From: Chlorobiaceae bacterium
Lineage (GTDB): Bacteria > Bacteroidota > Chlorobiia > Chlorobiales > Chlorobiaceae
Reading direction: 5' to 3'
Assembly (NCBI GenBank): GCA_016931495.1
Contig: JAFGER010000013.1
Span: 1-56,979 of the forward strand
DNA length: 56,979 bases
The position numbers and the translations under genes are program-made. Below the pieces are notes generated by a model that searched no databases, was not told the DNA's origin, and saw only the letters and a list, made by a program, of their open reading frames with translations. Below are positions 35,604-50,101 of this stretch, piece after piece. Numbering within the stretch: position 1 is the first letter of the stretch; each line of letters opens with the position of its first letter.

Positions 35604-37244
35604 ATGAAGATTCTGATGATTCAGCCGAATTATCACTCAGGCGGCGCCGAAATTGCAGGCAACTGGACGCCAAGCTGGGTTGCCTACATTGGCGGAGCTC
35701 TGAAGCAGGCTGGCTTCAGTCAGGTGAAATTTGTGGATGCTATGGCCGACGACCTGCCCGATGAAACCATCGAGGAGATCATCCGCAAAAACCAGCCGGA
35801 TGTGGTGATGACCACCAATATCACCCCCTCGATCTTCAAGGCGCAGGATATCATGAAAACCGCCAAGAAGGTCAACAAGAATATCCGCACCATCATGGGC
35901 GGCATCCACTCCACCTTCATGTACCCGCAGGTGCTCACCGAAGCGCCGGAGACCGATTACGTGGTCCGCGGCGAAGGCGAAGAGGTCACCGTCAACCTCA
36001 TGAAGTCCATCGCCGCCGGCACCGACAAGCAGGACCGCGCCAACATCACCGGTATCGCCTACATCGACGACAACGGCCAGGTGTTCGCCACGGCTGCCCA
36101 TCCGGTCATCGAGGATCTCGACACCCTCACCCCGGACTGGAGCCTTTACGACTGGGACAAGTACATCTACACCCCGCTCAACTGCCGTCTGGCCGTGCCG
36201 AACTTCGCCCGAGGCTGCCCCTTCACCTGCACCTTCTGCTCGCAGTGGCAGTTCTGGCGCCGGTATCGCGCCCGCAGCCCGAAGCACTTCGTGGACGAAA
36301 TCGAGATTCTGGTCAAGAAATACAACGTGGGCTTCTTCATCCTTGCCGACGAAGAGCCGACCATCAACAAGCAGAAGTTCGTCTCGCTCTGCCAGGAGCT
36401 CATCGACCGCAAGCTCGACGTCACCTGGGGTATCAACACCCGCGTGACCGACATCATGCGTGACGAAGACCTCCTGCCGTTCTACCGCAAGGCCGGTCTG
36501 GTGCACGTCTCGCTCGGCACCGAGGCAGCCAGCCAGATGAACCTGAACCGTTTCCGCAAGGAGACCACCATCGACGAGAACAAGTACGCCATCAAACTGC
36601 TCCAGAAGAACGGCATCGTGGCGGAAGCGCAGTTCGTGATGGGTCTCGAGCACGAAACCCCGGAGACCATCGAAGAGACCTACCAGCTCTGCAAGGACTG
36701 GGATCCGGATATGGCCAACTGGACGATCTACACCCCGTGGCCCTTCTCCGACCTCTTCAAGGAGCTTGGCGACCGCGTCGAAGTCCGCGACTATTCGCGA
36801 TACAACTTCGTTTCGCCGATCATCAAGCCGGACAACATGGAACGCGAGGATGTGCTCAAGGGCGTGCTGAAATCATACGCGCGCTTCTACGCCCGCAAGA
36901 CCTTCTTCAGCTACCCCTGGATCAAGGATCCGTATGTGCGCAAGTACATGCTCGGCTGCCTCAAGGCGTTCGCGCAGACCACCATCACCAAGCGATTCTA
37001 CGACATCGACCGCGTCAAGACCAAGAACCGCAAGATCGAGATCGACCTCGGCTTCGACCAGTCCAGAATCCTGACGCAGGCCGAGGTGAAGAACCTGAAG
37101 GAGCTGCGCCCCGAAATGGTTGCCGACATGAGCTTCGGCCTCAAGGAAGCCGGCTACCAGCGCGAGCACGACGAACACAACTGGGACGAGTTCGACGAAT
37201 CGACCATCAAGGACCGCACCTCCGACACCGTCCGCAACTGCTGA
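35604..37244 (+). CDS. bchE: Anaerobic Mg-protoporphyrin IX monomethyl ester cyclase
   Basis: BchE makes the isocyclic E ring without oxygen, using a radical SAM centre and cobalamin. From ATG 35604, behind GGAGGGTGG, it has 546 residues. The N-terminal about 150 residues form the B12-binding-type Rossmann domain (PDVVMTTNITPSIF, TIMGGIHSTFMYP). The 4Fe-4S ligands are C205, C209 and C212 in GCPFTCTFCSQW, followed by the radical SAM barrel. The use of BchE rather than an oxygen-dependent cyclase fits a strict anaerobe. A terminator follows. Confidence 0.96.
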   Translation: MKILMIQPNYHSGGAEIAGNWTPSWVAYIGGALKQAGFSQVKFVDAMADDLPDETIEEIIRKNQPDVVMTTNITPSIFKAQDIMKTAKKVNKNIRTIMGGIHSTFMYPQVLTEAPETDYVVRGEGEEVTVNLMKSIAAGTDKQDRANITGIAYIDDNGQVFATAAHPVIEDLDTLTPDWSLYDWDKYIYTPLNCRLAVPNFARGCPFTCTFCSQWQFWRRYRARSPKHFVDEIEILVKKYNVGFFILADEEPTINKQKFVSLCQELIDRKLDVTWGINTRVTDIMRDEDLLPFYRKAGLVHVSLGTEAASQMNLNRFRKETTIDENKYAIKLLQKNGIVAEAQFVMGLEHETPETIEETYQLCKDWDPDMANWTIYTPWPFSDLFKELGDRVEVRDYSRYNFVSPIIKPDNMEREDVLKGVLKSYARFYARKTFFSYPWIKDPYVRKYMLGCLKAFAQTTITKRFYDIDRVKTKNRKIEIDLGFDQSRILTQAEVKNLKELRPEMVADMSFGLKEAGYQREHDEHNWDEFDESTIKDRTSDTVRNC

Positions 37245-37266
37245 TCGTCAGCAAGGATACCAAAAG

Positions 37267-37293
37267 CAAAACCCGCCACTCCGGCGGGTTTTG
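37267..37293 (+). terminator. Intrinsic terminator after bchE
   Basis: CAAAACCCGCC and GGCGGGTTTTG form a perfect 11-bp stem with a 5-base loop 22 bases after the bchE stop. Confidence 0.85.
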
Positions 37294-37404
37294 TGGTTTT
37301 GGGAAAAGCGTTGCATCCTGTTTCACACGATGCGCCCATGCATAAAGCTTTCTGAAACCCGGCATTCACCGGATAAAAATTCGCAGCTGATTGTGAATTT
37401 GAGC

Positions 37405-37438
37405 ACAAAAAAGCCCCGCATCGGTGTTGCGGGGCTTG
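37405..37438 (-). terminator. Intrinsic terminator after hsp20
   Basis: On the minus strand AAGCCCCGCAA and TGCGGGGCTTTTTT form a stem with a T-run, 26 bases after the hsp20 stop. Confidence 0.88.
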
Positions 37439-37463
37439 GGAGGGAATTTTGTTTTCTGGCGAG

Positions 37464-37892
37464 TCAGCTGACGGTGACCTCTTTGCTCTTTTTCTCTTCG
37501 GGCTCCTTCTTCGGCACGACGATTTTGAGAACGCCGTTGTCGTAGTTGGCGCTGATGTTGTCGCTATCGACATTTTCACCGATGGTGAAGCTTCTTGAGA
37601 GGCTGCCCCAGGAGCGTTCTACGCGGTGGTAGTTCTTCTTTTTCTCCTCCTCCTCCTGGGCGCGTTCTGCGCAAATGCTGATAACGTCATCTTCTATGGT
37701 CACCTTTACATCCTCCTTCTTCACGCCCGGAATGTCGGCGGAGAGGTAAATGGCTTTTTCATCTTCACTGATATCCACCTTGAAGGTCGGTGCGATCATC
37801 GAACCCATCGAGCTGATGAACGGCGTGAGCCTTTCGTTAAACACATCTTCAAACATCTTCAGGGGATCCCTTCCATAAAGTTTGAGGTTCAT
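37464..37892 (-). CDS. Small heat-shock protein, HSP20 family
   Basis: The 142-residue protein has the alpha-crystallin domain (about residues 35-130) with VDISEDEKAIYLSADIPGVKKEDVKV and the hallmark GVLKIVVPKK near its end. The N-terminal arm is short, and the C-terminal extension (VTVS) has a degenerate I-x-I-type anchor. As an ATP-independent holdase it binds unfolding proteins. It has its own terminator and is divergent from the cas operon. Confidence 0.93.
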   Translation of the reverse strand: MNLKLYGRDPLKMFEDVFNERLTPFISSMGSMIAPTFKVDISEDEKAIYLSADIPGVKKEDVKVTIEDDVISICAERAQEEEEKKKNYHRVERSWGSLSRSFTIGENVDSDNISANYDNGVLKIVVPKKEPEEKKSKEVTVS

Positions 37893-38219: not shown

Positions 38220-40802
38220 TTGCGTTACCCCAAAACGAACAAAAAGCCGGATGCTCCGGTTGACCGTCCACTGCTACCGCTTGAAAAATGCCTCGCGAAA
38301 TCACGAAAAATCGATAATGGCCGATCTATTGCCGGGCGAACGGTGCTCGACCACTGCCGCATCGCGGGCGAGGTGGCGCGGGAGCTGATCGCCCGCTCGC
38401 CCGCCTTCCTGCGCGAGCCGTTCTTCCCCGGCGGCTCCGCGCTCATCGCCGCCGGCCACGACCTCGGCAAGGTCTGCCCAACCTTCCAGCAAAAAATCCA
38501 CTCGGCGATTGAAAGCCCCGACCCGGCAATTCTCGACGTGCTGCGCGGCGCTGATCCGTCGCTCGAAAGCCAATGGGGCGGACACGCGGGCGTGAGTGAG
38601 TGCGCGCTCGAAGCGCTGGAAGCGGGCAAATTTATCCCGCAAATCGCCGGTTGCCACCACGGCTACGCGCCAAAGCTCGCTGGCCGCACCGCCGACGCGG
38701 AGTCGTTCGGCGGCCCGGCTTGGCAAGCCGAACGAGCGCGGCTTTTGGAATTGCTGATGGAGGCGACGGGCGAGCGGTTCCCGGACATCCGCGATCCGCT
38801 GCACGCCCGCGTGCTGGCCGGGCTGACCTCCGTAGCGGACTGGATCGGCTCCGGTGCGACGTTCGACGACCCGGCAGTGCCGTGGGAAAACCGCATCGCC
38901 AGCGCCGTCGATGCCGCCGGATTCACGCCGCCGCGCCTCGCGCCAGGGCTGTCATTCCGGGAGATTTTTCCCTTTGAACCGAACCCGATCCAGCGCGGCC
39001 TGATCGAAGCGGCCTGTCGCCCCGGCGTGTACATCCTCGAAGCGCCGATGGGCATCGGCAAAACCGAAGCCGCGCTCTACGCCGCCTACGCCCTCGTTTC
39101 GGCTGGCAAGGCGCGAGGCATCTACTTCGCGCTGCCGACGCAGCTCACCTCCAACCGCATTCACGAGCGGGTCGAGCGCTTTCTCGACAAGGTGCTCGAA
39201 GCGGACTCGCCCCACCGCAACGCGCTGCTCGTGCACGGCAACGCCTGGCTGCGGGAGTTCGATCTCGGCGCGGACGCCGCTCCCGGCTGCTCGTGGTTCC
39301 GGGCGTCGAAGCGCGGCCTGCTCGCCCCCTTCGCCGTCGGCACCATCGACCAAGCGCTGATGGCCTCGATGAATGTCAAACACGGCTTCGTTCGCGCCTT
39401 CGGCTTGGCGGGCAAGGTGGTCATTCTCGACGAAGTGCACAGCTACGACGCCTACACCGGCACCATTCTCGACCGGCTGGTCGAGGAGTTGCGGAAGCTG
39501 CGCTGCACCGTGATTATCCTGAGCGCCACGCTCACCGGCGAGCGGCGGAGCGCTTTGCTCGGCGCGGAGCGAAGCGCGGAAGCGGCCTACCCGCTCATCT
39601 CGGCGCTGCCCGCCGATGCAGGGGAGCCGGTGGAAATAGCGCCGGAAACAACCCCCGGAAACCGCGTCGCCATCCGCCAGACGCTCGACATCGACGAAGC
39701 AATGGACGAAGCGCTCGACCGCGCTGCTTCCGGTCAGCAGGTGCTCTGGATCGAGAACACCGTCACCGAAGCGCAGGAGGCGTTCAAACTCCTCGCCGCG
39801 CGAACTGACGGCATGGAAATCGAGTGCGGCCTGCTCCATTCGCGCTTCATCCACCGTGACCGCGAGGCGCTCGAAGAGGAGTGGGTGACGCGCTACGGCG
39901 CTGATGGCGCGGCGGCGCGGCGCGTGCGGGGACGCATTCTCGTCGGCACGCAGGTGCTCGAACAGTCGCTCGACATCGACGCCGACTTCCTCGTCACGCG
40001 CCTCTGCCCCACCGACATGCTCTTGCAGCGCATCGGGCGCTTGTGGCGGCACGCTTTCCACCAGCGCCCCGCGGGAGCGAGGTGCGAAGCTTGGATCGTC
40101 AGCGCGGAGTTCGAGGCCGCCGAACAAAATCCCGCCGAGGCGTTCGGCAACAGCGCGAAGGTTTACAGCCCCTACGTGCTCTTGCGGACGCTTCAGGCGT
40201 GGAGCGGCGTCGAAACGCTTTCGCTGCCCGGCGACATTCGCGGCCTGCTCGAACGCACCTACGAAGCGAAGCTGGAGAGCAAGGCGATGGCAAAGCACAA
40301 AGCTGACCTCCAGCGGCGAAAAGAGACGCTTGAACGATTCGCGCTTCAGAGCGTCTCGCCGGGTCTCGGCGCAAAACCGGACACCAACGTCAGCACCCGA
40401 TACAGCGACATCGACAGCGTCGAGCTGCTGTTGCTGCAATCGGTCAGCCACGACCACGCGGCGGGCATAACCACGGTGACGCTGCTCGACGGCCAAACGC
40501 TCACCCTGCCGCACGAATTTGCCGCCGGGCAAAAACGGGAGAAGCGCGAACTCGCCGCCAGCCTCGCCACGCAAACGCTTCAGGTGGCCGATTACGCCGC
40601 GCCCGCCGACCCCGGCAGAACCGCGCTCTCGTGGCTCAAGCCCTACTTCTACCTCGGCGATCCGTCGAAGAGCGAAAGCCTGTTGCGCGTCGCCATCGTG
40701 GGCGAAGGCGGCCAACTGAGGCTGCCCGGCGGCGGCGCGGCGTCCGGCGACTACGAACTGAGTTACAACCCGCGACTGGGCTACCAGTACAAAAAACGAT
40801 AA
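38220..40802 (+). CDS. cas3: Type I-E CRISPR nuclease-helicase Cas3
   Basis: Cas3 degrades DNA marked by Cascade. It has 860 residues, close to the E. coli protein. The N-terminal HD nuclease domain shows LDHCRIAGEVA and AAGHDLGK, then GGHAGVSE. The helicase domain has Walker A EAPMGIGKTEAAL, DEVH in VILDEVHSYDAY, LSATL (motif III), QVLEQSLDIDADFLV (motif V) and LLQRIGRLWRH (motif VI). No ATG lies near the N-terminus; the longest start is TTG at 38220, so the exact start is uncertain. It heads the cas operon, 17 bases before cse1. Confidence 0.95.
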   Translation: MRYPKTNKKPDAPVDRPLLPLEKCLAKSRKIDNGRSIAGRTVLDHCRIAGEVARELIARSPAFLREPFFPGGSALIAAGHDLGKVCPTFQQKIHSAIESPDPAILDVLRGADPSLESQWGGHAGVSECALEALEAGKFIPQIAGCHHGYAPKLAGRTADAESFGGPAWQAERARLLELLMEATGERFPDIRDPLHARVLAGLTSVADWIGSGATFDDPAVPWENRIASAVDAAGFTPPRLAPGLSFREIFPFEPNPIQRGLIEAACRPGVYILEAPMGIGKTEAALYAAYALVSAGKARGIYFALPTQLTSNRIHERVERFLDKVLEADSPHRNALLVHGNAWLREFDLGADAAPGCSWFRASKRGLLAPFAVGTIDQALMASMNVKHGFVRAFGLAGKVVILDEVHSYDAYTGTILDRLVEELRKLRCTVIILSATLTGERRSALLGAERSAEAAYPLISALPADAGEPVEIAPETTPGNRVAIRQTLDIDEAMDEALDRAASGQQVLWIENTVTEAQEAFKLLAARTDGMEIECGLLHSRFIHRDREALEEEWVTRYGADGAAARRVRGRILVGTQVLEQSLDIDADFLVTRLCPTDMLLQRIGRLWRHAFHQRPAGARCEAWIVSAEFEAAEQNPAEAFGNSAKVYSPYVLLRTLQAWSGVETLSLPGDIRGLLERTYEAKLESKAMAKHKADLQRRKETLERFALQSVSPGLGAKPDTNVSTRYSDIDSVELLLLQSVSHDHAAGITTVTLLDGQTLTLPHEFAAGQKREKRELAASLATQTLQVADYAAPADPGRTALSWLKPYFYLGDPSKSESLLRVAIVGEGGQLRLPGGGAASGDYELSYNPRLGYQYKKR

Positions 40803-40819: not shown

Positions 40820-42379
40820 ATGCAAAACCGTTTCAACCTGATCGACGAGCCGTGGATTCCGGCAATCGGCAAAGGCTTCACGAGCCTCGGTGACATTTTC
40901 AGCGATCCTGAAATTCCCGCCCTCGGCGGCAACCCCGTGCAGAAAATCGCCCTCACCAAGCTGCTGCTCGCCATCGGCCAGGTCGCCTGCACGCCGGAAA
41001 CCACGGAGGCGCTCGAACAGCTCGACGCCGAAACCTTCCGCAATGCCTGCCGCGCCTATCTCGAAAAGTGGCGCGAGAGCTTCTGGCTCTTCGGCGACAA
41101 GCCGTTTTTGCAGATGCCCGCAATTCTTAACTGGATAGAATCTCAACGCGCTGTCGGAATTTTATCTGAAACAAAAGATGCGAAGCAAATTGGGCCAGGA
41201 TTTTATCCAAGTCTTCCGTCAGAAAATGATTCCATTCTGAGTCAGTTCCAGACACTTGAGGCTCAAACAGAAGCCGAAAAAGCGTTATTCATTGTTTCGG
41301 TCATGAACTTCGCTTTTGGCGGAACGCAGATTAACAAGAACATTTATCCATCAGAAGAAAAAGTCAAGGGAAAAGGAAAACCGGCAAAACCCGGACCGAG
41401 TTTAGGACGAAATGGTTATTTGCACACCTTTCTTTTCGGTTCGACAATAACTGATACGCTCATTATGAATCTTCTTTCTCAAGAAGAGATCGACAACTTG
41501 TTATTCTGGGAAAAAGGAATTGGAACTCCACCTTGGGAAAACATGCCTGTCAGCAGAGAATGTGACGTCGCACTATCTCTCAAAAAATCTTACATGGGGA
41601 CTCTTGTATCGCTTTCACGATTCGTCCTTCTGCACGGAGATGGAATTTATTATGTCGATGGGATTCTTTATCCAGCTCATCAACAGGGCTGGTTAGAACC
41701 AAGTATGACGATCGATGATCAGCAAAATCCGCCGAAAGCCATATTGGTCAATCCAGAGAAGCGCCCGTGGCGAGAGCTGGTATCAATCCTTGCTGTTTTC
41801 GATAGCAACAAAAACAACAAGTTTGTTTGTCTGTTCATAAAATACGGTTTGAGCAGATGGCCGAAACGATACAATAAACCTGGAGATAAAATTGGCGTTT
41901 GGTCGGGGGGACTTCAGGTGTCATTTCAAACTGGCGAGCAATATGCAAAAGCTGCTAATGATTTTGTAGAATCATCAGTAGAACTCGACCCCGACATGTG
42001 GGACGACTTATGGTATGATTACTTCTGCAAAGAAATAACTACTCTTGAAGAAATAGCGAGTCAAGTCAAGTATGGAGTAATAAGATATTATGACGCATTT
42101 GAGCCAAAAACAGAAAGAAAGCCCAAAGAAAGAGCTTCAACAATAATGGGAAAAAAAGCTGTAGAGTTATTCTGGCAACTTGCGGAAAGGTTGTCCAAAG
42201 ATATCGCTTACGCTTGCATTCCGGCCAGACATACCGAATCAATCCCCGCAATCAGAAAAAGAATGATTTCTATTGCCAGAGAGTCCTACGACGCCTACTG
42301 CCCGAAGGAGACGGCGCGGCAGATCGATGCGTGGGCGGAGTGCCGTCCCAATTTTGCGAAGCACTTCATCAACAAATGA
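40820..42379 (+). CDS. cse1: Cascade large subunit Cse1 (Cas8e), with low-GC central part
   Basis: Cse1 recognises the PAM and recruits Cas3. The 519-residue protein starts NRFNLIDEPWIPA, the usual Cse1 opening, and has GRNGYLHTF in the loop region and a C-terminal helical bundle. Base use is striking. The ends resemble the rest of the operon (about 67-72% GC in lines I counted), but about 41120-42280 is much poorer (37% and 43% in two 60-base stretches). This looks like replacement of the middle of the gene. It is intact, and its stop overlaps the cse2 ATG. Confidence 0.93.
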   Translation: MQNRFNLIDEPWIPAIGKGFTSLGDIFSDPEIPALGGNPVQKIALTKLLLAIGQVACTPETTEALEQLDAETFRNACRAYLEKWRESFWLFGDKPFLQMPAILNWIESQRAVGILSETKDAKQIGPGFYPSLPSENDSILSQFQTLEAQTEAEKALFIVSVMNFAFGGTQINKNIYPSEEKVKGKGKPAKPGPSLGRNGYLHTFLFGSTITDTLIMNLLSQEEIDNLLFWEKGIGTPPWENMPVSRECDVALSLKKSYMGTLVSLSRFVLLHGDGIYYVDGILYPAHQQGWLEPSMTIDDQQNPPKAILVNPEKRPWRELVSILAVFDSNKNNKFVCLFIKYGLSRWPKRYNKPGDKIGVWSGGLQVSFQTGEQYAKAANDFVESSVELDPDMWDDLWYDYFCKEITTLEEIASQVKYGVIRYYDAFEPKTERKPKERASTIMGKKAVELFWQLAERLSKDIAYACIPARHTESIPAIRKRMISIARESYDAYCPKETARQIDAWAECRPNFAKHFINK

Positions 42380-42930
42380 TAAAACCAACCGTTATGGACA
42401 ACGAAAAAGAGAAGAAAACCGGCAGGCCGGAAAAGTTCGTGGAGTTTGTGATCGGGCTGTGCCAGCGCGACAAAGGAGCCGCCGCCGCGCTTCGCCGCGC
42501 GGACAATCCGGCGACCGAGTACCAGAGCTGGGAGTACCTCGCGGGCTTCAACATCGACCTCGAAAAACCCTACGAGCGCATTCCCTACGCCGCCATCGCC
42601 GCCGCCATCGCGCGGGCCAAAGCGGAGCGCAACGGCTCGGCGGGCATCGGCAAGTCGATCGCCTTTTGCTACGACGACAAAAGCGCCAGCGAGCAGGCCA
42701 AAGCACGGCTCCGGCGGCTGCTTGCCTGCGATTCGGTGGGGGAGGCGTGCCGGATTCTGCGCCCGCTCTTCAGCCTGATCGACTCGAAAGCGGCGGTGAC
42801 GCTCGACTATGCGAAGCTGCTCGACCAGCTCCTCTGGTTCCATCGCGACAGCAACCGCATCAAAACGGCATGGGCGACCGACTTTTACCGCCACGCCGCC
42901 AAAACCGAAAACGAGGAGGTGGAGGCATGA
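42376..42930 (+). CDS. cse2: Cascade small subunit Cse2
   Basis: Cse2 dimerises along Cascade and holds the displaced strand. It has 184 residues, mostly helical. EFVIGLCQRDKGAAAALRRAD near residue 20 and the C-terminal DYAKLLDQLLWFHRDSNRIKTAWATDFYRH are typical of the family. The ATG at 42376 overlaps the cse1 stop by four bases (ATGA); a second ATG lies at 42394. Confidence 0.92.
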   Translation: MIKPTVMDNEKEKKTGRPEKFVEFVIGLCQRDKGAAAALRRADNPATEYQSWEYLAGFNIDLEKPYERIPYAAIAAAIARAKAERNGSAGIGKSIAFCYDDKSASEQAKARLRRLLACDSVGEACRILRPLFSLIDSKAAVTLDYAKLLDQLLWFHRDSNRIKTAWATDFYRHAAKTENEEVEA

Positions 42931-43559
42931 TTGCAACCATTCTCACCCTCAGCCGCAAGGAGGTCAACGCGCTGCGCATGACGGACGATTATTCGCTGCA
43001 CCGCGTCGTTTACAGCCTTTTCGAGGACGTGCGCTCGGAGGCCGAAAAGCGGTCGAGCGTGCCCAGCGGCTTCCTCTTCGCCGACAAGGGGGGCGACGCC
43101 AAAGGCAGGCGAATCCTCATTCTGTCGGACAGGCCGCCGCTGCAACCGGCGCACGGAACGCTGTCTGCGTCGTGGACGGTGCCCGACGAATTTCTCCAGC
43201 ACCGCTTCTACAAGTTCGAGGTGACGCTCAACCCGACGCGCAAGGAGAACAAGAGCGGCAGGCGCGTACCCATCAAAACCCGCGAGGAGGTGGCGGCATG
43301 GTTCGGCGGCAAGTCGCTCTCGTCGTGGGGATTCAGCGTTGACCCCGCCCGGCTCGACGTGCGGATGCTGCCGGTGATGCAATTCAGCAAGCAGGGCGAC
43401 CGTCCCGTCACCCACGGAGCGGCCAGCGTGTCGGGAATGCTGCGCGTCGAAAACCGCGACCTCTTTATCGAAAGCTTCAACAAAGGCATTGGCCGGGGCC
43501 GGGCGTTCGGCTTCGGGCTGTTGCAGATCGAACCTCTCAAGGATGATTCAAACCACTAA
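42927..43559 (+). CDS. cas6e: crRNA endonuclease Cas6e (Cse3)
   Basis: Cas6e cuts the pre-crRNA at the 3' base of each repeat hairpin and stays in Cascade. The 210-residue protein has two ferredoxin-like domains. The likely catalytic His25 lies in YSLHRVVYSLF, and the glycine-rich loop IGRGRAFGFGLLQI lies at the C-terminus. It overlaps cse2 by four bases (ATGA). Its place between cse2 and cas7 differs from the E. coli order, where it follows cas5. Confidence 0.93.
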   Translation: MIATILTLSRKEVNALRMTDDYSLHRVVYSLFEDVRSEAEKRSSVPSGFLFADKGGDAKGRRILILSDRPPLQPAHGTLSASWTVPDEFLQHRFYKFEVTLNPTRKENKSGRRVPIKTREEVAAWFGGKSLSSWGFSVDPARLDVRMLPVMQFSKQGDRPVTHGAASVSGMLRVENRDLFIESFNKGIGRGRAFGFGLLQIEPLKDDSNH

Positions 43560-43572: not shown

Positions 43573-44622
43573 ATGAACACCATGAACAACAATCCATTCA
43601 AGGGCCAGCGCATCGAGTTCCACATCCTCCAGCCCTTTCCGGTCACCTGCCTGAACCGCGACGACGTTGGCGCTCCGAAAACCGCGACGGTCGGCGGCTC
43701 CACCCGCGCCCGCGTCAGCTCGCAGTGCTGGAAGCGCCAGGTACGCCTCGAAATGCACAATCTCGGCGTGAGGCTCGGCGTCAGAAGCAAAAAGGTCTCC
43801 GACTACGTAGCCAAAGCCTGCGTCGCTCTCGGCGCGGATGAGGAAGCGGCGAAGGCATGCGGAGAGAAGATTGCCGCCGCGTTCAGCAACGACACGCTCT
43901 TCTTTTTCAGCGAAACGGAGGCAGTCGCCTTTGCGCAGTACGCCGCCGAAAAGGAGTTCGACGCCTCGAAGCTGAACGACAAAGAGCTGGCGAAGCTCTC
44001 GAAGAAAACGCTCGATCCGGCCAAGGACGGCCTCGACATCGCGCTGTTCGGGCGGATGGTGGCGCAGGCTGCCGAGCTGAACATCGAGGCCGCCGCGTCG
44101 TTCGCTCACGCCATTTCGACCCACAAGGTGAGCAACGAAGTCGAGTTCTTCACCGCGCTCGACGACCTTGCCGAGGAGCCGGGTTCGGCGCACATGGGCA
44201 GCCTTGAATTCAACTCGGCGACCTACTACCGCTACGTCAGCCTCGACCTCGGCCAGCTTTCGACGAACCTCGGCGGCGCGGAGATCGCCGACGCGGTGGA
44301 GGCGTTCACCAAAGCGCTCTTCCTGGCCGTGCCGAGCGCCCGGCAGACGACGCAGTCGGGCGCGTCGCCGTGGGAGTTCGCCAAAATTTACATCCGCAAG
44401 GGCCAGCGCCTTCAGGTTCCGTTCGAGACCGCCGTCAAAGCGAAGGATGGCGGATTCCTCCAGCCGAGCATCAAGGCGCTCACCGACTATCTCGCCAAAA
44501 AGGAGAAGCTCGCCGGATCGATGTTCGGCAAGGAAAAGGAGTTCGACTTCGGCGTGGACGAAACGTTCAGCATCGACACGCTGGTCGGCGAAATCCGCAA
44601 CTTTATCGAAGCGAAATCATGA
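43573..44622 (+). CDS. cas7e: Cascade backbone subunit Cas7e (Cse4/CasC)
   Basis: Six copies of Cas7e form the backbone that binds the crRNA spacer. It has 349 residues from ATG 43573; a second ATG is at 43582. The N-terminal signature RIEFHILQPFPVTCLNRDD, followed by ARVSSQCWKRQVR, is diagnostic of Cse4/CasC. GSLEFNSATYYRYVSLD and LFLAVPSARQTTQSG follow. It ends overlapping the cas5 start. Confidence 0.95.
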   Translation: MNTMNNNPFKGQRIEFHILQPFPVTCLNRDDVGAPKTATVGGSTRARVSSQCWKRQVRLEMHNLGVRLGVRSKKVSDYVAKACVALGADEEAAKACGEKIAAAFSNDTLFFFSETEAVAFAQYAAEKEFDASKLNDKELAKLSKKTLDPAKDGLDIALFGRMVAQAAELNIEAAASFAHAISTHKVSNEVEFFTALDDLAEEPGSAHMGSLEFNSATYYRYVSLDLGQLSTNLGGAEIADAVEAFTKALFLAVPSARQTTQSGASPWEFAKIYIRKGQRLQVPFETAVKAKDGGFLQPSIKALTDYLAKKEKLAGSMFGKEKEFDFGVDETFSIDTLVGEIRNFIEAKS

Positions 44623-45323
44623 GCAATCCATTCATCCTTTTATGGCTCGAAGCGCCCCTCCAGTCGTGGGGCGCTGATTCGCGCTTCGGGCGGCGCGACA
44701 CGCTCGACTTCCCCACGAAGTCGGGCTTGCTCGGCCTCTTGTGCTGCGCCCTCGGCGCGGGCGGCGAGCAGCGGGAACTGCTCGCCGAAATGGCCCCGCT
44801 CCGCCAGACGGTGCTCGCGTTCCAGCGCGAACGCGGCGAGCGACCGCCGCTCTTGCGCGACTTCCAGATGGTCGGCAGCGGGTACAACAAGAAAGAGCCG
44901 TGGGAATCGTTACTGATTCCAAGAAAAAGCAATGGGGATATTGCGGTGGGCGGCGGCACGAAGATGACCTACCGCTACTATTTGCAGGAGGCCGCCTTCG
45001 CCGCCGCAGTGCAGGTCCCGGCGGCGCGGGCCGGGGAGTTCGCCGAAGCGCTCAAGGCTCCCGTGTGGGACATCTATTTCGGACGCAAGTGCTGCGCGCC
45101 GACCGACCTCGTGTTCCGGGGCTGCTTCGATTCGGAGGCGGAGGCGCTCGATGCGGCCTCTTCAATCGCCCATGAAAAGCGTCTTGCCGAGGCGTTTCGC
45201 GTGCTCGACGGTGTGCATGAGGGCGAGGTCGTGGCGCTGAACGACGTGCCGGTGCAGTTCGGGCCGAAGAAAAAATATCGCCAGCGGCGAGTAACCATAA
45301 TCCACAAAAACGATGAAGAGTAA
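44619..45323 (+). CDS. cas5e: Cascade subunit Cas5e (CasD)
   Basis: Cas5e binds the 5' handle of the crRNA. The 234-residue protein begins with the family signature LLWLEAPLQSWGADSRFGRRD, then PTKSGLLGLLCCALG. The C-terminal RRVTIIHKND overlaps the cas1 start. The ATG at 44619 overlaps the cas7 stop by four bases. Confidence 0.94.
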   Translation: MSNPFILLWLEAPLQSWGADSRFGRRDTLDFPTKSGLLGLLCCALGAGGEQRELLAEMAPLRQTVLAFQRERGERPPLLRDFQMVGSGYNKKEPWESLLIPRKSNGDIAVGGGTKMTYRYYLQEAAFAAAVQVPAARAGEFAEALKAPVWDIYFGRKCCAPTDLVFRGCFDSEAEALDAASSIAHEKRLAEAFRVLDGVHEGEVVALNDVPVQFGPKKKYRQRRVTIIHKNDEE

Positions 45324-46203
45324 CGCACTCGGCAACGAAGGGAATCCGGCGCGGCTTTTGATAAAAGTGACGCGGGAGACCCTTCCGCAGGTCAAGGAAA
45401 AGTATCCGTTTCTGTATCTTGAAAAGGGTCGGATGGAGATTGACGACAGCAGCATCAAGTGGATCGATTGCGACTGCAACGTCGTGCGCCTGCCGGTCGC
45501 CATGCTGAATTGTATTTTGCTCGGCCCCGGAACGACGGTGACGCACGAGGCGGTAAAGGTAATGGCCGCCGCCAATTGCGGCATCTGCTGGGTTGGCGAC
45601 GACAGCCTGATGTTTTACGCGAGCGGGCAGACGCCGACCAGCAACACGCGCAACATGACTCATCAGATGAAGCTCGCGGCCAATCCAACCAAAGCGCTTG
45701 AAGTGGCGCGGAGGCTGTTCGCCTATCGCTTTCCGGACGCGAATCTGGAAAACAAGACGCTGCCGCAGATGATGGGCATGGAGGGGTTGCGGGTGCGGAA
45801 GTTTTACGAAGAGATGGCCGTGAAATACAAGGTCGGCTGGAAGGGGCGGCGGTTCGAGCCGGGTAAATTCGAGATGAGCGACACCACCAACAAGATTCTG
45901 ACGGCGGCCAATGCGGCGCTCTACAGCATCATCATGTCGGCGGTGCACAGCATGGGCTATTCGCCGCACATCGGGTTCATTCACTCCGGAAGTCCGCTGC
46001 CGTTCATTTACGACCTGGCCGATCTTTACAAGCAGCAGGTCTCCATCGACCTGGCCTTTTCGCTCACCGCCGAGATGGCCGGGTATTACGACCGGCACAA
46101 AATCGCCGGAGAGTTCCGGAAGCGCGTCATCGAAATCGACCTGCTGGGCAAGATCGGCCCGGACATCGAAAACATTCTGGGGAAAAAGCAATGCTCGTCG
46201 TAG
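45313..46203 (+). CDS. cas1: CRISPR integrase Cas1 (type I-E)
   Basis: Cas1, with Cas2, inserts new spacers. The 296-residue length is normal for I-E. The N-terminal beta domain is followed by the helical catalytic domain with ANAALYSIIMSAVHSMGYSPHIGFIHSG and LPFIYDLADLYK, which hold the metal-binding His and Asp. The upstream conserved Glu lies in the AALYSII helix region or just before it. It overlaps cas5 by 11 bases. Confidence 0.96.
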   Translation: MKSNALGNEGNPARLLIKVTRETLPQVKEKYPFLYLEKGRMEIDDSSIKWIDCDCNVVRLPVAMLNCILLGPGTTVTHEAVKVMAAANCGICWVGDDSLMFYASGQTPTSNTRNMTHQMKLAANPTKALEVARRLFAYRFPDANLENKTLPQMMGMEGLRVRKFYEEMAVKYKVGWKGRRFEPGKFEMSDTTNKILTAANAALYSIIMSAVHSMGYSPHIGFIHSGSPLPFIYDLADLYKQQVSIDLAFSLTAEMAGYYDRHKIAGEFRKRVIEIDLLGKIGPDIENILGKKQCSS

Positions 46204-46526
46204 TCGCCAATGACCTGCCCCCGGCTGTGAGAGGCCGGATGAAGCTCTGGTTCATCGAACCACGGGCGAACGTTTTTGTGTCGGGCGTGCGGGACAGCCT
46301 GGCCAGAAAGGTGGTTGACTATCTGCACGAGCACTGCCCGCCGAAGAGCGGCCTGATGATTTTCAACAGCTCGAACGGGTGTCCCGGCTACGAGATTTTC
46401 GGCATGGGCGACACGCGCAAAGAGATCACGGAAATTTCGGGCCTGCCGCTCGTGATTGAAAAATCAGCCGAACCGCCACCAGAAAACCCAAACAGATTGA
46501 CGCCAGACGCCCCGAAAGCCCAGTAA
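46191..46526 (+). CDS. cas2: CRISPR adaptation protein Cas2e
   Basis: The protein has 111 residues, longer than the about 95 typical of Cas2e. The body matches the type I-E form (MLVVVANDLPPAVRGRMKLWF, NVFVSGVRD, HCPPKSGLMIF). The last about 20 residues (EKSAEPPPENPNRLTPDAPK) are proline-rich. The stop is only 8 bases before the first CRISPR repeat, so this extension occupies the place where a leader is expected. It overlaps cas1 by 13 bases. Confidence 0.93.
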   Translation: MLVVVANDLPPAVRGRMKLWFIEPRANVFVSGVRDSLARKVVDYLHEHCPPKSGLMIFNSSNGCPGYEIFGMGDTRKEITEISGLPLVIEKSAEPPPENPNRLTPDAPKAQ

Positions 46527-46534
46527 AACCCAGT

Positions 46535-48090
46535 GTCTTCCCCACGCCCGTGGGGGTGTTTCCGTCGATATGATGCACGCGCTTCCACTTCTTTGGTCTT
46601 CCCCACGCCCGTGGGGGTGTTTCGCATCACGAGCAGCGGTTTTCGATTCTCTTTTTGTCTTCCCCACGCCCGTGGGGGTGTTTCCTTTTTTGCTTGGAGG
46701 TAAAGCTGGCGAAAAAAGTCTTCCCCACGCCCGTGGGGGTGTTTCTGTCCTTTTGCTTCCCAGAAAAAAGGGCAGGCTGTCTTCCCCACGCCCGTGGGGG
46801 TGTTTCCATTTCGTTCTGCGCCATCACGCCCCCCTGATAGTCTTCCCCACGCCCGTGGGGGTGTTTCTATCGATATACAGATGATTATCGCCGGGCGAAA
46901 AGTCTTCCCCACGCCCGTGGGGGTGTTTCTCGCTCACCCATCCACGGACGCAGAGCAAAGCCGTCTTCCCCACGCCCGTGGGGGTGTTTCTACTATTCAA
47001 AAGCTGTTCCTGTTCCTTAAAAGGTCTTCCCCACGCCCGTAGGGGTGTTTCCATAAGCGCTCCACCGCCGCCACCGCCGCCACCGTCTTCCCCACGCCCG
47101 TGGGGGTGTTTCCAAAACAAACAAAAGCCATGAAAAACAACACTGGTCTTCCCCACGCCCGTGGGGGTGTTTCCGCTTCAGGCTATGAAGCGTCCGGAAA
47201 CTGGGGGTCTTCCCCACGCCCGTGGGGGTGTTTCTGGAAGTTACAGGGGTAACAACTCACTGGTACGGTCTTCCCCACGCCCGTGGGGGTGTTTCATCAT
47301 TCGCCCTGTTCGCCGACATGGGTACGGGGGTCTTCCCCACGCCCGTGGGGGTGTTTCTACATCGACGTGATCGAAAGCAAGAGAGGGGTGGTCTTCCCCA
47401 CGCCCGTGGGGGTGTTTCCAGATTTGTACATAGATCGTCCACGAGCACCACGTCTTCCCCACGCCCGTGGGGGTGTTTCTCGAATTGCGTTACGCAATGG
47501 CTTTGCAGTCAGGTCTTCCCCACGCCCGTGGGGGTGTTTCTAGGTGAAGTACACATTTTTAAATATTTAGGGGGTCTTCCCCACGCCCGTGGGGGTGTTT
47601 CCTAACATTAGCCGGACACTCGGCGTATTACAAAGTCTTCCCCACGCCCGTGGGGGTGTTTCTTCGATGACGTTGAATGCGTCAATATCGGAAAGGTCTT
47701 CCCCACGCCCGTGGGGGTGTTTCCTCGGCTGGAATGGCAGATTTGGTGAACGAGGCGTCTTCCCCACGCCCGTGGGGGTGTTTCCTTGATCCCCTCTTCC
47801 TTTCGATCAGAATTGTGGTCTTCCCCACGCCCGTGGGGGTGTTTCTTTTTTCTGAAAGATACCACTGTATTTCATCGTGTCTTCCCCACGCCCGTGGGGG
47901 TGTTTCCTCAACAGGAAGTTTTCTGTACATTTCGGCGGCGTCTTCCCCACGCCCGTGGGGGTGTTTCCAGCCGGCCCTTGCTCATCCTCGGGCACTGCGA
48001 GTCTTCCCCACGCCCGTGGGGGTGTTTCTGCGTCGCGTGGAAAAACTGCCCGCTGAATGCGGTCTTCCCCTCGCCCGTGGGGGGGGTTTC
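46535..48090 (+). CRISPR. Type I-E CRISPR array, 26 repeats and 25 spacers
   Basis: The 28-bp repeat starts GTCTTCCCC, has a CCCCACG/CGTGGGG hairpin and ends GTGTTTC. This matches the I-E repeat class read on the plus strand, the same strand as the cas genes. Repeat starts are spaced 61 bases apart except two intervals of 62, so spacers are 33-34 bases. Repeat 9 (47024) has one G-to-A change. The last repeat (48062) is degenerate: A to T in the stem and GGGGTG replaced by an eight-G run, as expected at the trailer end. One spacer after 47085-side repeats (about 47052-47084) is almost pure CCGCCA. Confidence 0.97.
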
Positions 48091-48209
48091 TTTCTAAGAA
48101 AGACTTGACTAAAGAGTACCCACTCATTGCGGATGAAACAAAGAAGGACAACGGAGACGGGTACAAAGTAGCTTTCCAGACCTTAAACGGGATTAACAAA
48201 CAACCATAA
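48091..48209 (+). pseudogene. 3' end of a gene cut off at the last CRISPR repeat
   Basis: Directly after the last repeat a frame reads SKKDLTKEYPLIADETKKDN and continues GDGYKVAFQTLNGINKQP to a TAA at 48207-48209. There is no start codon, and composition is coding-like and AT-richer than the host. The most economical reading is that the array end has replaced or truncated the gene's 5' part. The parent protein is not recognised. Confidence 0.5.
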
Positions 48210-48224
48210 GACAAGAAGAATGAG

Positions 48225-48524
48225 ATGAATATTTCGATTCTTTTGCCGACGCTGCGAAAAAACGCCGAGGGATGGACGATAACCGGAGAAAGAGAAGAGA
48301 TAACGCTCGGAATGAGTCAGGTGCAGTCACTTACCCTTTATTCTGACAAGTTTTGTGACATCATCACAATGACAACCCATCAAGAACAGCAAATATCTCT
48401 AACGTATCCGCGAGAAAAAGGCGCTGCCTGGGCTTATTGCGGTTATGCCTTTCCTGTCAAAGAGTTGTATTCAAAAATGCGTCGCGACTGGTTGCAGGAC
48501 ATGCGCTCCGACGAAGAAACGTAA
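48225..48524 (+). CDS. Unknown 99-residue protein beside the CRISPR array
   Basis: Not recognised. The gene starts 15 bases after the truncated gene's stop, behind AAGAAG-like purines, and probably formed one operon with it. The protein has no signal peptide and no membrane span; it mixes beta-strand segments with charged helices and ends WLQDMRSDEET. Base composition (43% GC in one 60-base line) is well below the cas genes. It lies between the array and an orphan CRISPR repeat. Function cannot be inferred; phage or plasmid origin is possible. Confidence 0.55.
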   Translation: MNISILLPTLRKNAEGWTITGEREEITLGMSQVQSLTLYSDKFCDIITMTTHQEQQISLTYPREKGAAWAYCGYAFPVKELYSKMRRDWLQDMRSDEET

Positions 48525-48591
48525 TCTAGCAATAGAAAAAGCTGCTCAGTATCATCAACTGCCGAACGATTTCTCAGTAAACACAAAAAAA

Positions 48592-48620
48592 TTCATTCCC
48601 AACGCCCGTGGGGGTATTTC
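48592..48620 (+). repeat. Orphan degenerate CRISPR repeat
   Basis: The sequence CATTCCCAACGCCCGTGGGG, followed by GTATTTC, matches the array repeat at most positions: ACGCCCGTGGGGGT is identical and there is a G-to-A in the handle. It lies about 500 bases beyond the last array repeat, in the same orientation, with no second copy nearby. Confidence 0.75.
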
Positions 48621-48802
48621 TCATAGCGCCAATGATGTCAGCGCTGGTTGGTTGGGGGTTGCCAGATGCTGGAGAACACGGGGCCGCGTGGATATATGAA
48701 CGTTTTAATTTAAAATTGAAGGCTTGGCATAGTGACGAACGTGAACCCGGTGCAGAAGAAATGTGGGACACAAGAATTTCAACTTTTTTAAAGCCTACTG
48801 AT

Positions 48803-50044
48803 ATGAGACCTGTGAGAAAAACCATAGCAAGGTCGCTCTTTATGCTCGTCGCGATTTTTTCGTTTGTTCAGAATGCGAATGCAGACGTAATCCGCTCGGT
48901 GATTGACTATATCGACAGGTCACAAATCGCCTCCATCAAGAGCCATAATTACGACAGTCAGAATGCAGCGCTTGTTACGGCTGGCATCCAGGCGGCTTTT
49001 GACGATGGGGTTGGATACATGCCCGCCGGTACGTACAGAACAAACGGGACTCTTATTGCGCAAAATGTCAACGTAAAAGGTGACGGAATGTTTCAAACTT
49101 ATGTTATCGGCGATATTGTGAGCGCAACAGTGCCAGTGCTTGCCGCATGTCGATCAACGCAGGTACGAGACCTGAACATCCAGTTTGCGACAACGCGGAT
49201 CACCGGCACGGAAACCGAAGGGCAGCGCGTCGGTATCGTTACCGGTGCTGAGGGATACTACATGCTGCAACGAGGCGGTGGGATATATAATGTCCGCATT
49301 GAACATGTCGGCACGGCTATCAGTGATCTTGCAGAAAACGACTATGGCCCGTTTTCGGTAACTTTCGACACCATTGAAATCGAAAATCCGTCTTTTCGCG
49401 GAATAGATTTTCGATCATATCAGCGCACTGGTAACTGTTATCGAAACATCTACATTCATGGCGGAGATGGTTTTGGAACAGAAAACTCGCCATATATGAA
49501 TAATCAGGACTGCGGGTTTTATTTATCAGGGCAAGAATCTGAGTCATCAATAGATCAGATAAATGTTGAGTGGGGGCACTGGCGCCGCGCATTCGTTTTC
49601 GACGGCTTGAGCGCCGCAAGCATCGGCACGCTTCATATAGAAGAGGTCACGCTTCGTGATCATAATAGCGCGCTTATCGACTGGAATCACTCCACCGGAA
49701 GGATTCAATCGCTTTCTGTAATTTATTGCCCGATAATCACTTCAGGCTGGTCGGCGATAAACGTTATGGACGCAACCTATGTGCATCATGGTAACGGATC
49801 ATACACAAACAGCCTGTTATCAATCGGCACTTTCAATACGGCAGGTTTGAATGACGGAAAAAAAGTATCATCAGGACATGGAATAAGCTCGCTTGCAGAT
49901 TTTTATTTTGTGATACGAAACAGCAGGGCTCTTGGAAATTTCTCCATGCGGGTAGACAATAAAAACTGGAACACATTCCAGAGAGATACCGCTGTTTATA
50001 GCGCGTGGCCAAAAGACCCGCATAGCAGGATCAGGTGGCGTTGA
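48803..50044 (+). CDS. Secreted right-handed beta-helix (tailspike/pectate-lyase-like) protein
   Basis: From ATG 48803 the protein has 413 residues. A signal peptide is clear: RKTIAR, then SLFMLVAIFSFV, then QNANA^D. The segment NAALVTAGIQAAFDDGVGYMPAGTYRTNGTL resembles the start of phage tailspikes and pectate-lyase-like proteins (AIQAAID...GG.V..PAGTY). The rest has many short strands of the beta-helix kind. The frame is open back to 48608, inside the orphan repeat. GC is about 38% in one line counted, unlike the host. It may bind or cleave polysaccharide; no catalytic residues were assigned. Confidence 0.65.
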   Translation: MRPVRKTIARSLFMLVAIFSFVQNANADVIRSVIDYIDRSQIASIKSHNYDSQNAALVTAGIQAAFDDGVGYMPAGTYRTNGTLIAQNVNVKGDGMFQTYVIGDIVSATVPVLAACRSTQVRDLNIQFATTRITGTETEGQRVGIVTGAEGYYMLQRGGGIYNVRIEHVGTAISDLAENDYGPFSVTFDTIEIENPSFRGIDFRSYQRTGNCYRNIYIHGGDGFGTENSPYMNNQDCGFYLSGQESESSIDQINVEWGHWRRAFVFDGLSAASIGTLHIEEVTLRDHNSALIDWNHSTGRIQSLSVIYCPIITSGWSAINVMDATYVHHGNGSYTNSLLSIGTFNTAGLNDGKKVSSGHGISSLADFYFVIRNSRALGNFSMRVDNKNWNTFQRDTAVYSAWPKDPHSRIRWR

Positions 50045-50047
50045 ACT

Positions 50048-50101
50048 ATGAGCAAGGTATTTGAGACGATAAAGAGATCAACGAAATATCCGGAATTATA
50101 G
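50048..50101 (+). pseudogene. Short reading frame, possible remnant of an HTH/antitoxin gene
   Basis: Four bases after the beta-helix stop a 17-codon frame reads MSKVFETIKRSTKYPEL. The first ten residues resemble the N-terminus of XRE-type antitoxins (M-S-x-x-F-E-S-I-K-R-G-L). It is too short to be functional and may be chance. Confidence 0.25.

Follow-up and report, generated by a model that had tools for sequence, protein, structure and literature searches.

Cse1 is the Cascade subunit that reads the PAM and recruits Cas3, and its core is thought to read the DNA of the invader. Exchange of a recognition module is known from type I restriction systems, in which the target-recognition domains of HsdS are exchanged by homologous recombination between conserved parts of the scaffold. 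For CRISPR effector modules, shuffling in situ is described in a 2025 classification paper (Nat Microbiol 2025, PMC12669027, in excerpt), and Cas8e is reported as the Cascade subunit that is least similar between P. aeruginosa and E. coli (PMC8887544, in excerpt). Here we describe a type I-E operon in a Chlorobaculum-group genome (G000, a green sulfur bacterium), in which the greater part of a single subunit gene, cse1, has a history of its own. The window referred to below is the whole stretch of DNA that was analysed (56,979 nucleotides).

The type I-E locus and its mosaic cse1

The operon is complete, with cas3, cse1, cse2, cas6e, cas7, cas5, cas1 and cas2 and an adjoining CRISPR array, and all eight Cas proteins match the NCBIfam model of their own family over its cut-off. 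The gene cas6e sits between cse2 and cas7, while in E. coli it follows cas5. In the following list, the six relatives are G009, G019, G015, G020, G005 and G001, all of the same genus.

38220..40802, + strand: cas3, native, 66% GC; TIGR01587 and TIGR01596 over cut-off; 87-89% nucleotide identity to the six relatives
40820..42379, + strand: cse1 (cas8e), 519 codons, frame intact by translation
40820..41121, + strand: cse1 N-terminal end, native, up to about codon 100; 61% GC; 91-95% nucleotide identity to four GC-rich relatives
41099..41122, + strand: left anchor, codons for KPFLQMPA (94-101), from residue conservation the most likely place of crossover
41122..42281, + strand: low-GC cse1 core, imported, codons 101-487; delimited by identity blocks, 62-63% nucleotide identity, dS saturated
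41234..41278, + strand: window residues 139-153, part of the core, which a MAFFT alignment with CasA of E. coli places at the L1 loop of that protein
41348..41389, + strand: core residues 177-190, putatively the glycine loop; suggested by alignments, low model confidence
41930..41950, + strand: putative glutamine-wedge loop TGEQYAK (residues 371-377)
42167..42190, + strand: conserved LFWQLAER codons (450-457), where the native allele of G019 resumes
42282..42379, + strand: native C-terminal end of cse1, last helix; 90-96% nucleotide identity to the four GC-rich relatives
42287..42337, + strand: right anchor, codons for YDAYCPKETARQIDAWA (490-506), conserved residues; identity resumes here
42394..42930, + strand: cse2, native; TIGR02548 over cut-off; 88-94% nucleotide identity to the six relatives
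42930..43559, + strand: cas6e, native; TIGR01907 and PF08798 over cut-off; 89-96% to the six
43573..44622, + strand: cas7, native; TIGR01869 over cut-off; 92-94% to the six
44622..45323, + strand: cas5, native; TIGR01868 over cut-off; 87% to the six
45313..46203, + strand: cas1, native; TIGR03638 over cut-off; 89-94% to the six, the comparison with G009 spanning 374 of 891 bases at the end of the G009 contig
46191..46526, + strand: cas2, native; TIGR01873 over cut-off; 92-95% to five relatives, as the G009 contig stops before cas2
46535..48090, + strand: CRISPR array, 26 repeats of GTCTTCCCCACGCCCGTGGGGGTGTTTC and 25 spacers, last repeat degenerate

The Cse1 protein matches PF09481 (E 3.7e-57, positions 1-447 of 450, over cut-off) and TIGR02547 casA_cse1 (E 8.1e-138, 460.5 bits against a cut-off of 70.05). 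The two 180-base tiles that cover 40860-41129 have 62-63% GC, all those over 41130-42299 have 36-46%, and those over 42390-42929 have 60-69%. This agrees with the preliminary description, which had reported abrupt changes in composition near 41120 and 42280 inside one intact Cse1 frame. Its suggestion to follow GC and codon use along the operon likewise bore out the difference, as GC3 is 81% in cas3 and in cse1 codons 1-100 (61% GC) compared to 38% in the core (41120-42280, 42% GC); the C-terminal end has 59% GC. The core is the lowest-GC 1161-base tile of the window (41.8%; mean 58.6, s.d. 4.8; step 20 bases).

The steps in GC and GC3 coincide with junctions in identity. Blocks of identity with the four GC-rich relatives stop at 41121 and restart at 42282-42284 in all four, and these limits, which were measured independently of GC, lie within a few bases of the boundaries first proposed. 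The ends of cse1 are 90-96% identical to these relatives at the nucleotide level, whereas the core shows 62-63% over 761-786 of its 1161 bases with saturated dS; the other cas segments have 87-96% identity and dS of about 0.1-0.4. At the protein level, cas1 is 92-98% and the core 47-49% identical, with flanking sequence in common, and the commonest CRISPR repeat is identical in the window, G019 and the four GC-rich relatives (the G009 contig has no array). The swapped core proposed in the preliminary description is thus real.

Three of the eight cse1-bearing genomes of the genus carry the low-GC core and the other five do not. Besides G000, the carriers are two other species (G019 and G009), which are not its nearest kin. 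Among the 86 of 88 cse1 loci that have both flanks, the three carriers show the three largest core-to-flank GC deficits (-20.8, -19.0 and -16.3), while the difference in the remaining 83 has a mean of -2.0 (s.d. 3.6, minimum -14.2). The carriers' core is under purifying selection (dN 0.01-0.04, dS 0.08-0.30, codons 101-400).

In trees of 50 of the 88 loci (every one of the 20 Chlorobiaceae plus the first 30 of the rest), the carriers form one clade in the core (support 100/100), but are dispersed among GC-rich alleles in the ends, which group irrespective of the core. AU tests on core, cas3+7+5 and ends used 35 of the 88 loci, picked after divergence outliers were seen. The carrier clade is rejected on cas3+7+5 (p-AU 3e-4), on bch genes (p-AU 2e-75; 23 of 26 genomes, leaving out G011, G017 and G021) and on rpoB (p-AU 3e-4; 20 of the 24 genomes with an rpoB match, leaving out G006, G017, G018 and G021, and for G009 and G019 only, as G000 had no match). 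On the ends alone, with 131 columns, it is not rejected (p-AU 0.16). Since the carriers are not monophyletic on the bch, rpoB and cas3+7+5 trees, the core has moved between lineages. The preliminary description had named a core present in all close relatives, with congruent trees, as the finding that would speak against a swap; we find it in three of eight, and core and flanks yield conflicting, supported trees. Collectively, these comparisons show cse1 to be a recombination mosaic, in which about 1160 bases are those of a distant low-GC cse1, joined in frame, with the ends and the other cas genes native.

The origin of the low-GC core is unsure. In the core tree it groups next to G029 with a branch length of 1.45 changes per site, and long-branch attraction may be at work. 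A close donor was not found in protein, GTDB contig, plasmid, phage or IMG/VR searches: the best protein matches beyond the carriers had 61% identity over the whole protein and 51% amino acid identity in the core, identity among the best 80 of 160 listed GTDB contig matches was 93% for the carrier G009 and fell to 56% after it, five of 72,556 plasmid records matched, all below 39%, and neither phage records nor IMG/VR gave a match.

Structure of Cse1 and the residues that travel with the core

The AlphaFold model of the window Cse1 (pLDDT 83) matches CasA structures. In Foldseek, it matches T. thermophilus CasA 4f3e (E 1.6e-17), and all 20 chains with E of at most 0.001 are CasA/Cse1 or Cascade entries. 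The predicted helices 396-427, 439-465, 472-493 and 499-508 make up the C-terminal four-helix bundle of the CasA fold.

When solved structures were compared by sequence alone, the match to E. coli CasA extended no further than the N-terminal end, and residues were therefore mapped from a MAFFT alignment, whose register is uncertain between conserved blocks. For the lysine finger and the glutamine wedge, the mapping used what we take to be the E. coli residue numbers. Their names and roles follow an excerpt of PMC6546366, and the L1 loop of E. coli CasA is described as plugging into Cas5 and touching the crRNA handle (PMC5965380, in excerpt). The contacts E192 and E280 given in a review were left out, since the K-12 sequence has L and P there. 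Q374 is invariant among 53 aligned sequences, and the putative wedge loop around it differs by core class ([SA]GDQSVK to TGEQYAK).

The preliminary description had expected the surfaces contacting the rest of Cascade to be kept. This is so for the N-terminal 100 residues, the last helix and R509, which aligns with the Cse2 salt-bridge residue R483 of E. coli, all of which are native. It does not hold for the aligned L1 loop, most of the C-terminal helical bundle or the aligned Cas3-contact residues N376 and T383, which travel with the core. The preliminary description also proposed that a swapped core could change target recognition. The wedge-like loop does change with the core, but the first base of acquired spacers does not (see below), and Cas1-Cas2 was not swapped.

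Recurrence and junction positions in other type I-E loci

Across 88 cse1 loci, drops of at least 30 points occur in 16-24 of 73 close pairs per segment of cse1 101-487 and in none for any other cas segment with data (58-73 pairs each; segments other than cas2 were compared). With a threshold of 20 points, drops outside the core appear in cas3 1-143 (5/67) and cas7 1-117 (1/73), compared to 22-24/73 in the core. Twelve of the 80 loci from the GTDB contig search had been dropped as second copies of loci already in the set, and because peptides of the window itself served as the search seed, the set is biased towards sequences that have its conserved ends.

Comparable mosaics are found in Marinospirillum, Microbulbifer, Nitrosospira, Gallionella and Desulfocapsaceae-type loci, and most of them share the left junction. 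The loci L045 and L081, for example, share 45% amino acid identity in the core but 92% in the ends, 96% in cas7 and 91% in cas3, and their grouping is rejected in the core (p-AU 3e-81), yet supported by 100/100 on cas3+7+5. On the cas3+7+5 tree, core class changes eight times, seven of them forced by starred branches (77 of 88 loci, namely every locus that has two or more of cas3, cas7 and cas5). This part of cse1 seems to have been exchanged on independent occasions in several bacteria that are not related to one another. The K-12-type casA alleles of E. coli are uniform and show no such mosaic, as 1111 of 1135 near-match genomes cover at least 80% of the gene in a search that is blind to more divergent alleles. 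One E. coli match with 4% cover, the only low-cover match opened, was rejected as a swap as it has IS1 in place of casA.

Of the 27 mosaic pairs, 24 have their left junction at residue 100-102. The right junctions form three groups, ahead of YDxxCPxETARQxDAWA, ahead of LFWQLCER, and close to where the helical bundle starts (401-408). Mean residue conservation is 0.89 for residues 92-100 compared to 0.19 for 103-111, and the 9-residue mean centred on 95 reaches the 97th percentile. This conserved block stops where the left junction lies, so that the sharpness of the junction partly reflects where differences become visible. In the right anchor, R500, Q501 and W505 are invariant among 53 aligned sequences, and C494, A499, D503, A504 and A506 nearly so. 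For the 401-408 and 480-489 junction groups, 9-residue means lie at the 17th-24th percentile (centred on 400, 404, 480 and 489). The variable right junctions, two groups of which lie outside highly conserved positions, fit an anchor-driven crossover less well than the left junction does.

Explanations for the exchange and comparison with known systems

The mosaic was made by recombination, and we consider it highly probable that the core is exchanged as a cassette by homologous recombination, perhaps favoured by anti-CRISPR targeting. Incoming DNA would recombine on the left within the highly conserved KPFLQMPA codons and on the right before the YDxxCPxETARQxDAWA or LFWQLCER codons or near the bundle start (401-408), exchanging a core that putatively reads the PAM, separates the strands and recruits Cas3, and the native ends would preserve some of the assembly contacts. 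As a first guess at the driver, the exchange may be favoured by escape from anti-CRISPR proteins that target the core surface, so that a new core would restore immunity with repeats, spacers and Cas1-Cas2 unchanged. AcrIE4-F7 is described as binding the PAM site of P. aeruginosa Cas8e (PMC8887544, in excerpt). A wider claim is that Cse1 residues from about 101 to 487 are the one recombinational cassette of type I-E operons, swapped across genera to alter the PAM-side and anti-CRISPR-facing surface while the assembly ends, spacers, repeats and adaptation genes are kept. This may well be true, but we put it somewhat short of an even chance.

A swap could also be neutral or hitchhiking, with conserved anchors that happen to flank a divergent region and no selection on target reading or anti-CRISPR escape. 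The left junctions do border on one of the most conserved blocks, and the first spacer base is unchanged: it is a pyrimidine in 41 of 43 spacers of the carriers G000 and G019 and in 111 of the 113 spacers from four non-carriers. This constancy speaks against a wholesale change of PAM. This base was used because IMG/VR gave no protospacer match for a direct PAM comparison (two single spacers had no exact match there). Neutrality is at odds with the lack of drops of at least 30 points in the other tested cas segments of close pairs, and with the aligned L1, PAM-side and Cas3-contact residues all lying in Cse1 101-487. We regard a neutral swap as a serious possibility, if a rather doubtful one. 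In another reading, a common ancestor of the three Chlorobaculum carriers acquired the core once, long ago, and passed it on by vertical descent, without any general phenomenon. This would fit the dS of their core, which resembles that of their flanks, and the carrier clade tolerated by the ends alone. This is unlikely given the rejection of that clade on the bch, rpoB and cas3+7+5 trees, a core GC3 that still departs from that of its surroundings, and the repetition of the pattern in several other lineages.

Somewhat less likely still is a conversion of the ends, in which two old cse1 alleles coexisted in the genus and exchange homogenised their ends. It would formally give the same mosaic, with ends that group whatever the core, and both core types do occur at an apparently single site in the genus. 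However, only the core departs from the composition of the operon, which marks the core as the newcomer to these genomes. If, without any recombination, an arms race had made the core evolve much faster than constrained ends, ends more conserved than the core would be expected, as is seen family-wide. However, the unswapped close pairs L063-L058, L081-L093 and L005-L009 lack the step (log-likelihood gain 3-6 compared to 45-166 in 12 mosaic pairs; two carrier pairs gain 19 and 73 from their own junction differences), GC and GC3 change at the same points, and one core is common to distant lineages, in conflict with their cas genes (p-AU 7e-49). Pure rate variation was rejected on these conflicting trees, and the fast-core reading is very improbable. 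An assembly chimera was also rejected and has a negligible probability: G000 is a metagenome-assembled draft of 106 contigs, but the same core and left junction recur in the one-contig genome G019 and in G009, an independent assembly, and the reading frame is open through both junctions.

If exchange within one subunit at recurrent junctions is true, it would help explain how Cas8e diverges fast with the complex still assembling, and would amount to an immune-receptor-like exchange of modules inside a Cascade subunit. The junctions would also show where hybrid Cascades can be fused, as they have been in nature. As it is mainly the core that sets natural chimeras apart from their sisters without the swap, the two allow a comparison of PAM tolerance, Cas3 recruitment and anti-CRISPR sensitivity. 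Among the matches listed (titles and abstract starts of openly licensed PMC papers on cse1/cas8/cas recombination and Chlorobaculum CRISPR/Cse1), exchange of the cse1 core is not described, though an earlier description is possible.

The window Cse1 shares its fold, operon context and C-terminal four-helix bundle with the Cse1 (CasA, Cas8e) of E. coli, T. thermophilus and T. fusca. It differs from them in its chimeric origin, its low identity (13-19% in structural alignments to the 20 Foldseek chains) and the replacement of the E. coli zinc cysteines C140, C143, C250 and C253, which align with T150, E153, K256 and M259. As in the in situ shuffling of effectors described in the sections of PMC12669027 used here, closely related adaptation genes (cas1) stand beside a distant effector at one locus, exchanged in place. 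However, those sections describe the exchange of effector genes, with cas9 as the worked example, while in the window the inner three quarters of one subunit were exchanged: codons 1-100 and 488-519 are native, the junctions recur within cse1, and the remaining cas genes are kept. By analogy, a further parallel is HsdS, in which a recognition module is likewise exchanged between conserved parts of a scaffold, although an effect on specificity is only putative for the window, and its core, unlike the HsdS module, also carries surfaces for assembly (L1) and Cas3 recruitment.

Composition and genomic setting of cse1

The preliminary description reported that base composition changes abruptly within cse1 near 41120 and again near 42280. 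Our data confirm this, as GC falls from 62-63% to 36-46% between both points, and translation shows that the reading frame runs intact across the low-GC core, as was also claimed. The features are:

40820-42379 (+), cse1 (cas8e), 519 codons
41122-42281 (+), low-GC core of cse1, codons 101-487
46535-48090, CRISPR array

No other tile of equal length in the window is as low in GC as the core (41.8% vs a mean of 58.6, s.d. 4.8). Pfam places the protein in Cse1/Cas8e (E 3.7e-57), it matches NCBIfam TIGR02547 (E 8.1e-138), and the top Foldseek match to its AlphaFold model (pLDDT 83) is T. thermophilus CasA (E 1.6e-17). Each of the other seven cas genes exceeds the cut-off of the NCBIfam model for its own family.

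The window is contig 12 in a 2.25-Mb draft genome (G000) with Chlorobaculum as genus neighbours. A cse1 match was found in 19 of 86 family genomes, eight of them in the genus, and three of these eight (G000, G009 and G019, the carriers) have the low-GC core, which is absent from the other five. Identity between the window and its six nearest relatives starts upstream of cas3, at 37001 to 37464. The operon is preceded by bchE, which in G001, G009, G015 and G020 shares a contig with cse1 and is no more than 8 kb from it; the distance is about 14 kb in G019, and in G005 the two are on separate contigs. The operon thus appears to have occupied one site for a long time.

The first repeat follows cas2 after just eight bases (46526-46535); therefore any leader overlaps cas2 or sits at the far end of the array, where the last repeat is degenerate. 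Nearly all spacers in this array and in the arrays of seven relatives start with C or T. A low-GC stretch (about 47%) at 48000-50500 directly follows the array and contains a 478-aa ORF (48608-50044) for which no Pfam or NCBIfam model matched at E 0.001.

The cse1 mosaic within Chlorobaculum

In the GC-rich relatives G001, G005, G015 and G020, cse1 has about 60% GC overall and no step. The window shares 87-96% nucleotide identity with these four in cas3, both cse1 ends (codons 1-100 and 488-519), cse2, cas6e, cas7, cas5, cas1 and cas2, while blastn blocks stop at 41121 in all four and restart at 42282-42284. Within the core, identity is 62-63% over the alignable 761-786 of 1161 bases, and dS, about 0.1-0.4 outside, is saturated. 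The three carriers share 92-95% identity in the core, which is under purifying selection among them, since dN is 0.01-0.04 against a dS of 0.08-0.30 over codons 101-400. The right junction of G019 lies farther left than that of the window, near residue 450 and next to the conserved LFWQLCER motif, and residues 401-455 of G019 are also more divergent (dN 0.17 vs the window).

Two smaller features were also seen. The 3' end of cse1 in G019 (L103 in the set of 88 cse1 loci) has an extra 64 bases, aligned at window 42328 and including a second copy of GCGTGGGCGGAGTGCC, which give a different, longer Cse1 tail and look like a second recombination scar. The GC-rich Chlorobaculum alleles L005 and L006 are 100% identical outside cse1 residues 138-331 and 89% identical inside, a smaller exchange confined to the core and under our mosaic threshold.

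Trees of core and ends were built from 50 proteins. In the core tree the carriers form one clade (100/100) whose branch is 1.45 changes per site long, adjoining G029 (100/97) within Chlorobiaceae (100/99), and a single clade of carriers and GC-rich genus members is disfavoured (p-AU 0.014). The ends tree scatters the carriers, with G000 beside G015 and G020 (97/85), and G009 and G019 beside G001 (97/77), though for the ends alone a carrier clade is not rejected (p-AU 0.16). Such a clade is rejected by cas3+cas7+cas5 (p-AU 3e-4) and by bchE, bchM and part of bchH in 23 genomes (p-AU 2e-75), and rpoB, for which G000 has no match, rejects a clade of G009 and G019 (p-AU 3e-4). The core has thus probably passed from one lineage to another since it was first acquired, or was acquired on several occasions. 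A core donor was not found in the family genomes or 394 genomes of the phylum, among plasmids, phages and IMG/VR, or in GTDB contigs searched with peptide patterns (best 80 of 160 listed).

Recurrence and junctions of the exchange

Pairwise comparison of the 88 cse1 loci revealed this signature in other lineages as well. In Marinospirillum, L045 and L081 agree at 92% in the ends, 96% in cas7, 91% in cas3 and 92% in cas5, but at 45% in the core, with the low stretch at residues 101-401. The core tree unites L045 with L037 and L038 (100/100) and rejects L045 with L081 (3e-81); the cas3+cas7+cas5 tree pairs L045 with L081 (100/100) and rejects the L045-L037-L038 clade (7e-49). Like mosaics were found for Microbulbifer (L038) against Marinobacter or Gilvimarinus, for Gallionella (L056) and a Desulfocapsaceae genome (L036) against Nitrosomonas, and for the Nitrosospira strains L035 and L099. 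The last two, of one genus and different core classes, have about 50% nucleotide identity in residues 100-404 and 82% outside, and are a good pair for experiments. In E. coli strain 1506 (L188, 3288-6417), an IS1 stands in place of casA and a second IS1 splits cas7.

As a control, we counted drops in segment identity below each pair's own median among the 73 close pairs (median segment identity at least 78); cas2 was left out and a two-residue cas3 remnant gave no data. For cse1 residues 101-200, 201-300, 301-400 and 401-487, the pairs with a drop of at least 30 points numbered 24, 16, 19 and 17 of 73; no pair showed one in cse1 1-100 and 488-519 or in the segments of cse2, cas6e, cas7, cas5, cas1 and cas3 (58-73 pairs each). 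At 20 points the core gave 22-24/73, cas3 1-143 5/67 and cas7 1-117 1/73.

A two-breakpoint scan called 27 of the 73 pairs mosaic, although these are not independent of one another. Twelve set a Chlorobaculum carrier against a non-carrier, one joins two carriers (residues 395-489), and two are from other Chlorobiaceae (L017 with L016 and L018); L038 accounts for six, L056 and L036 for two each, and L045-L081 and L035-L099 for one each. On a quick cas3+cas7+cas5 tree of 77 loci, core class changes eight times, seven of them forced by starred branches, compared to one change on the core tree, which follows by construction as cores were split at its deep branch. By lineage there are about six events: Chlorobaculum, L045, L038, L035/L036, L056 with L082, and, more weakly, other Chlorobiaceae. 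L056 and L082 share a third core and are counted once because they are also sisters on cas3+cas7+cas5 (98/99).

The left junction falls at residue 100-102 in 24 of the 27 pairs, and the right junctions at 401-408 (5), 441-450 (10) and 480-489 (12). Mean conservation over the 88 loci is 0.89 at residues 92-100 (KPFLQMPA), 0.19 at 103-111 and 0.83 at 450-458, but only 0.47-0.53 at 400-404 and 480-489; a C-terminal motif just past the latter (500-505) reaches 0.77-0.79. In the AlphaFold model of the window protein, residue 101 opens a helix and residue 396 the C-terminal bundle, whose third helix ends close to the window's right junction. Diverged cse1 genes would recombine homologously, crossing over at the few sites where they remain alike enough for pairing. 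This accounts well for the left junction and the 450 group and less directly for the others, and part of the sharpness of the left edge comes from the point at which differences begin to show. Recombinational exchange of the Cse1 core as a cassette is the best explanation and a very probable one, our confidence being slightly reduced because two of the three right-junction groups lie off conserved positions.

Functional reach of the core and relation to known systems

PMC5965380 describes loop L1 of E. coli Cse1 (130-143) as plugging into Cas5 and contacting the crRNA handle, R483 as bridging to Cse2, and base residues as meeting Cas3. The core contains the aligned counterparts of L1 (window residues of about 139-153) and of the Cas3-contact residues N376 and T383 (396 and 403), whereas R483 aligns with R509 in the native end. 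The PAM readers named in PMC6546366 are a glutamine wedge, a glycine loop and a lysine finger. A wedge-like loop, which we infer to be the counterpart of the E. coli glutamine wedge, reads TGEQYAK in all three carriers. Of the 21 other class II cores, 17 have [SA]GDQSVK, and at least 54 of the 64 remaining loci (11 of those 64 unclassed) have AGEQ[YF]; the glutamine is invariant in 53 sequences. Judged by motif, the core swap changed the type of this loop.

The commonest repeat is identical in the two carriers with an array seen and the four GC-rich relatives. The first base of each spacer, treated here as coming from the PAM on the model of E. coli, is C or T in 41 of 43 spacers of carriers (G000 and G019) and 111 of 113 of non-carriers, and C vs T does not differ between the groups (p 0.28). 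By that analogy the spacers suggest that these I-E systems have a pyrimidine as their PAM-derived base. A wholesale PAM change in the carriers is unlikely because this base is unchanged, though spacer acquisition is the job of the unswapped Cas1-Cas2. We would favour anti-CRISPR escape as the driver, given that the PAM site of P. aeruginosa Cas8e, where three lysines are essential, is bound by AcrIE4-F7 (PMC8887544).

Among the matches listed for cas or cse1 recombination and for Chlorobaculum CRISPR in a library of openly licensed papers, none describes exchange of the cse1 core. What seems new is that the exchange takes place within one Cascade subunit, that its junctions recur, and that in our sample it is limited to this part of the operon. 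In-place shuffling of effector modules is known, with cas9 exchange as the example in PMC12669027; there effector genes are exchanged, here the inner part of a single Cascade subunit.
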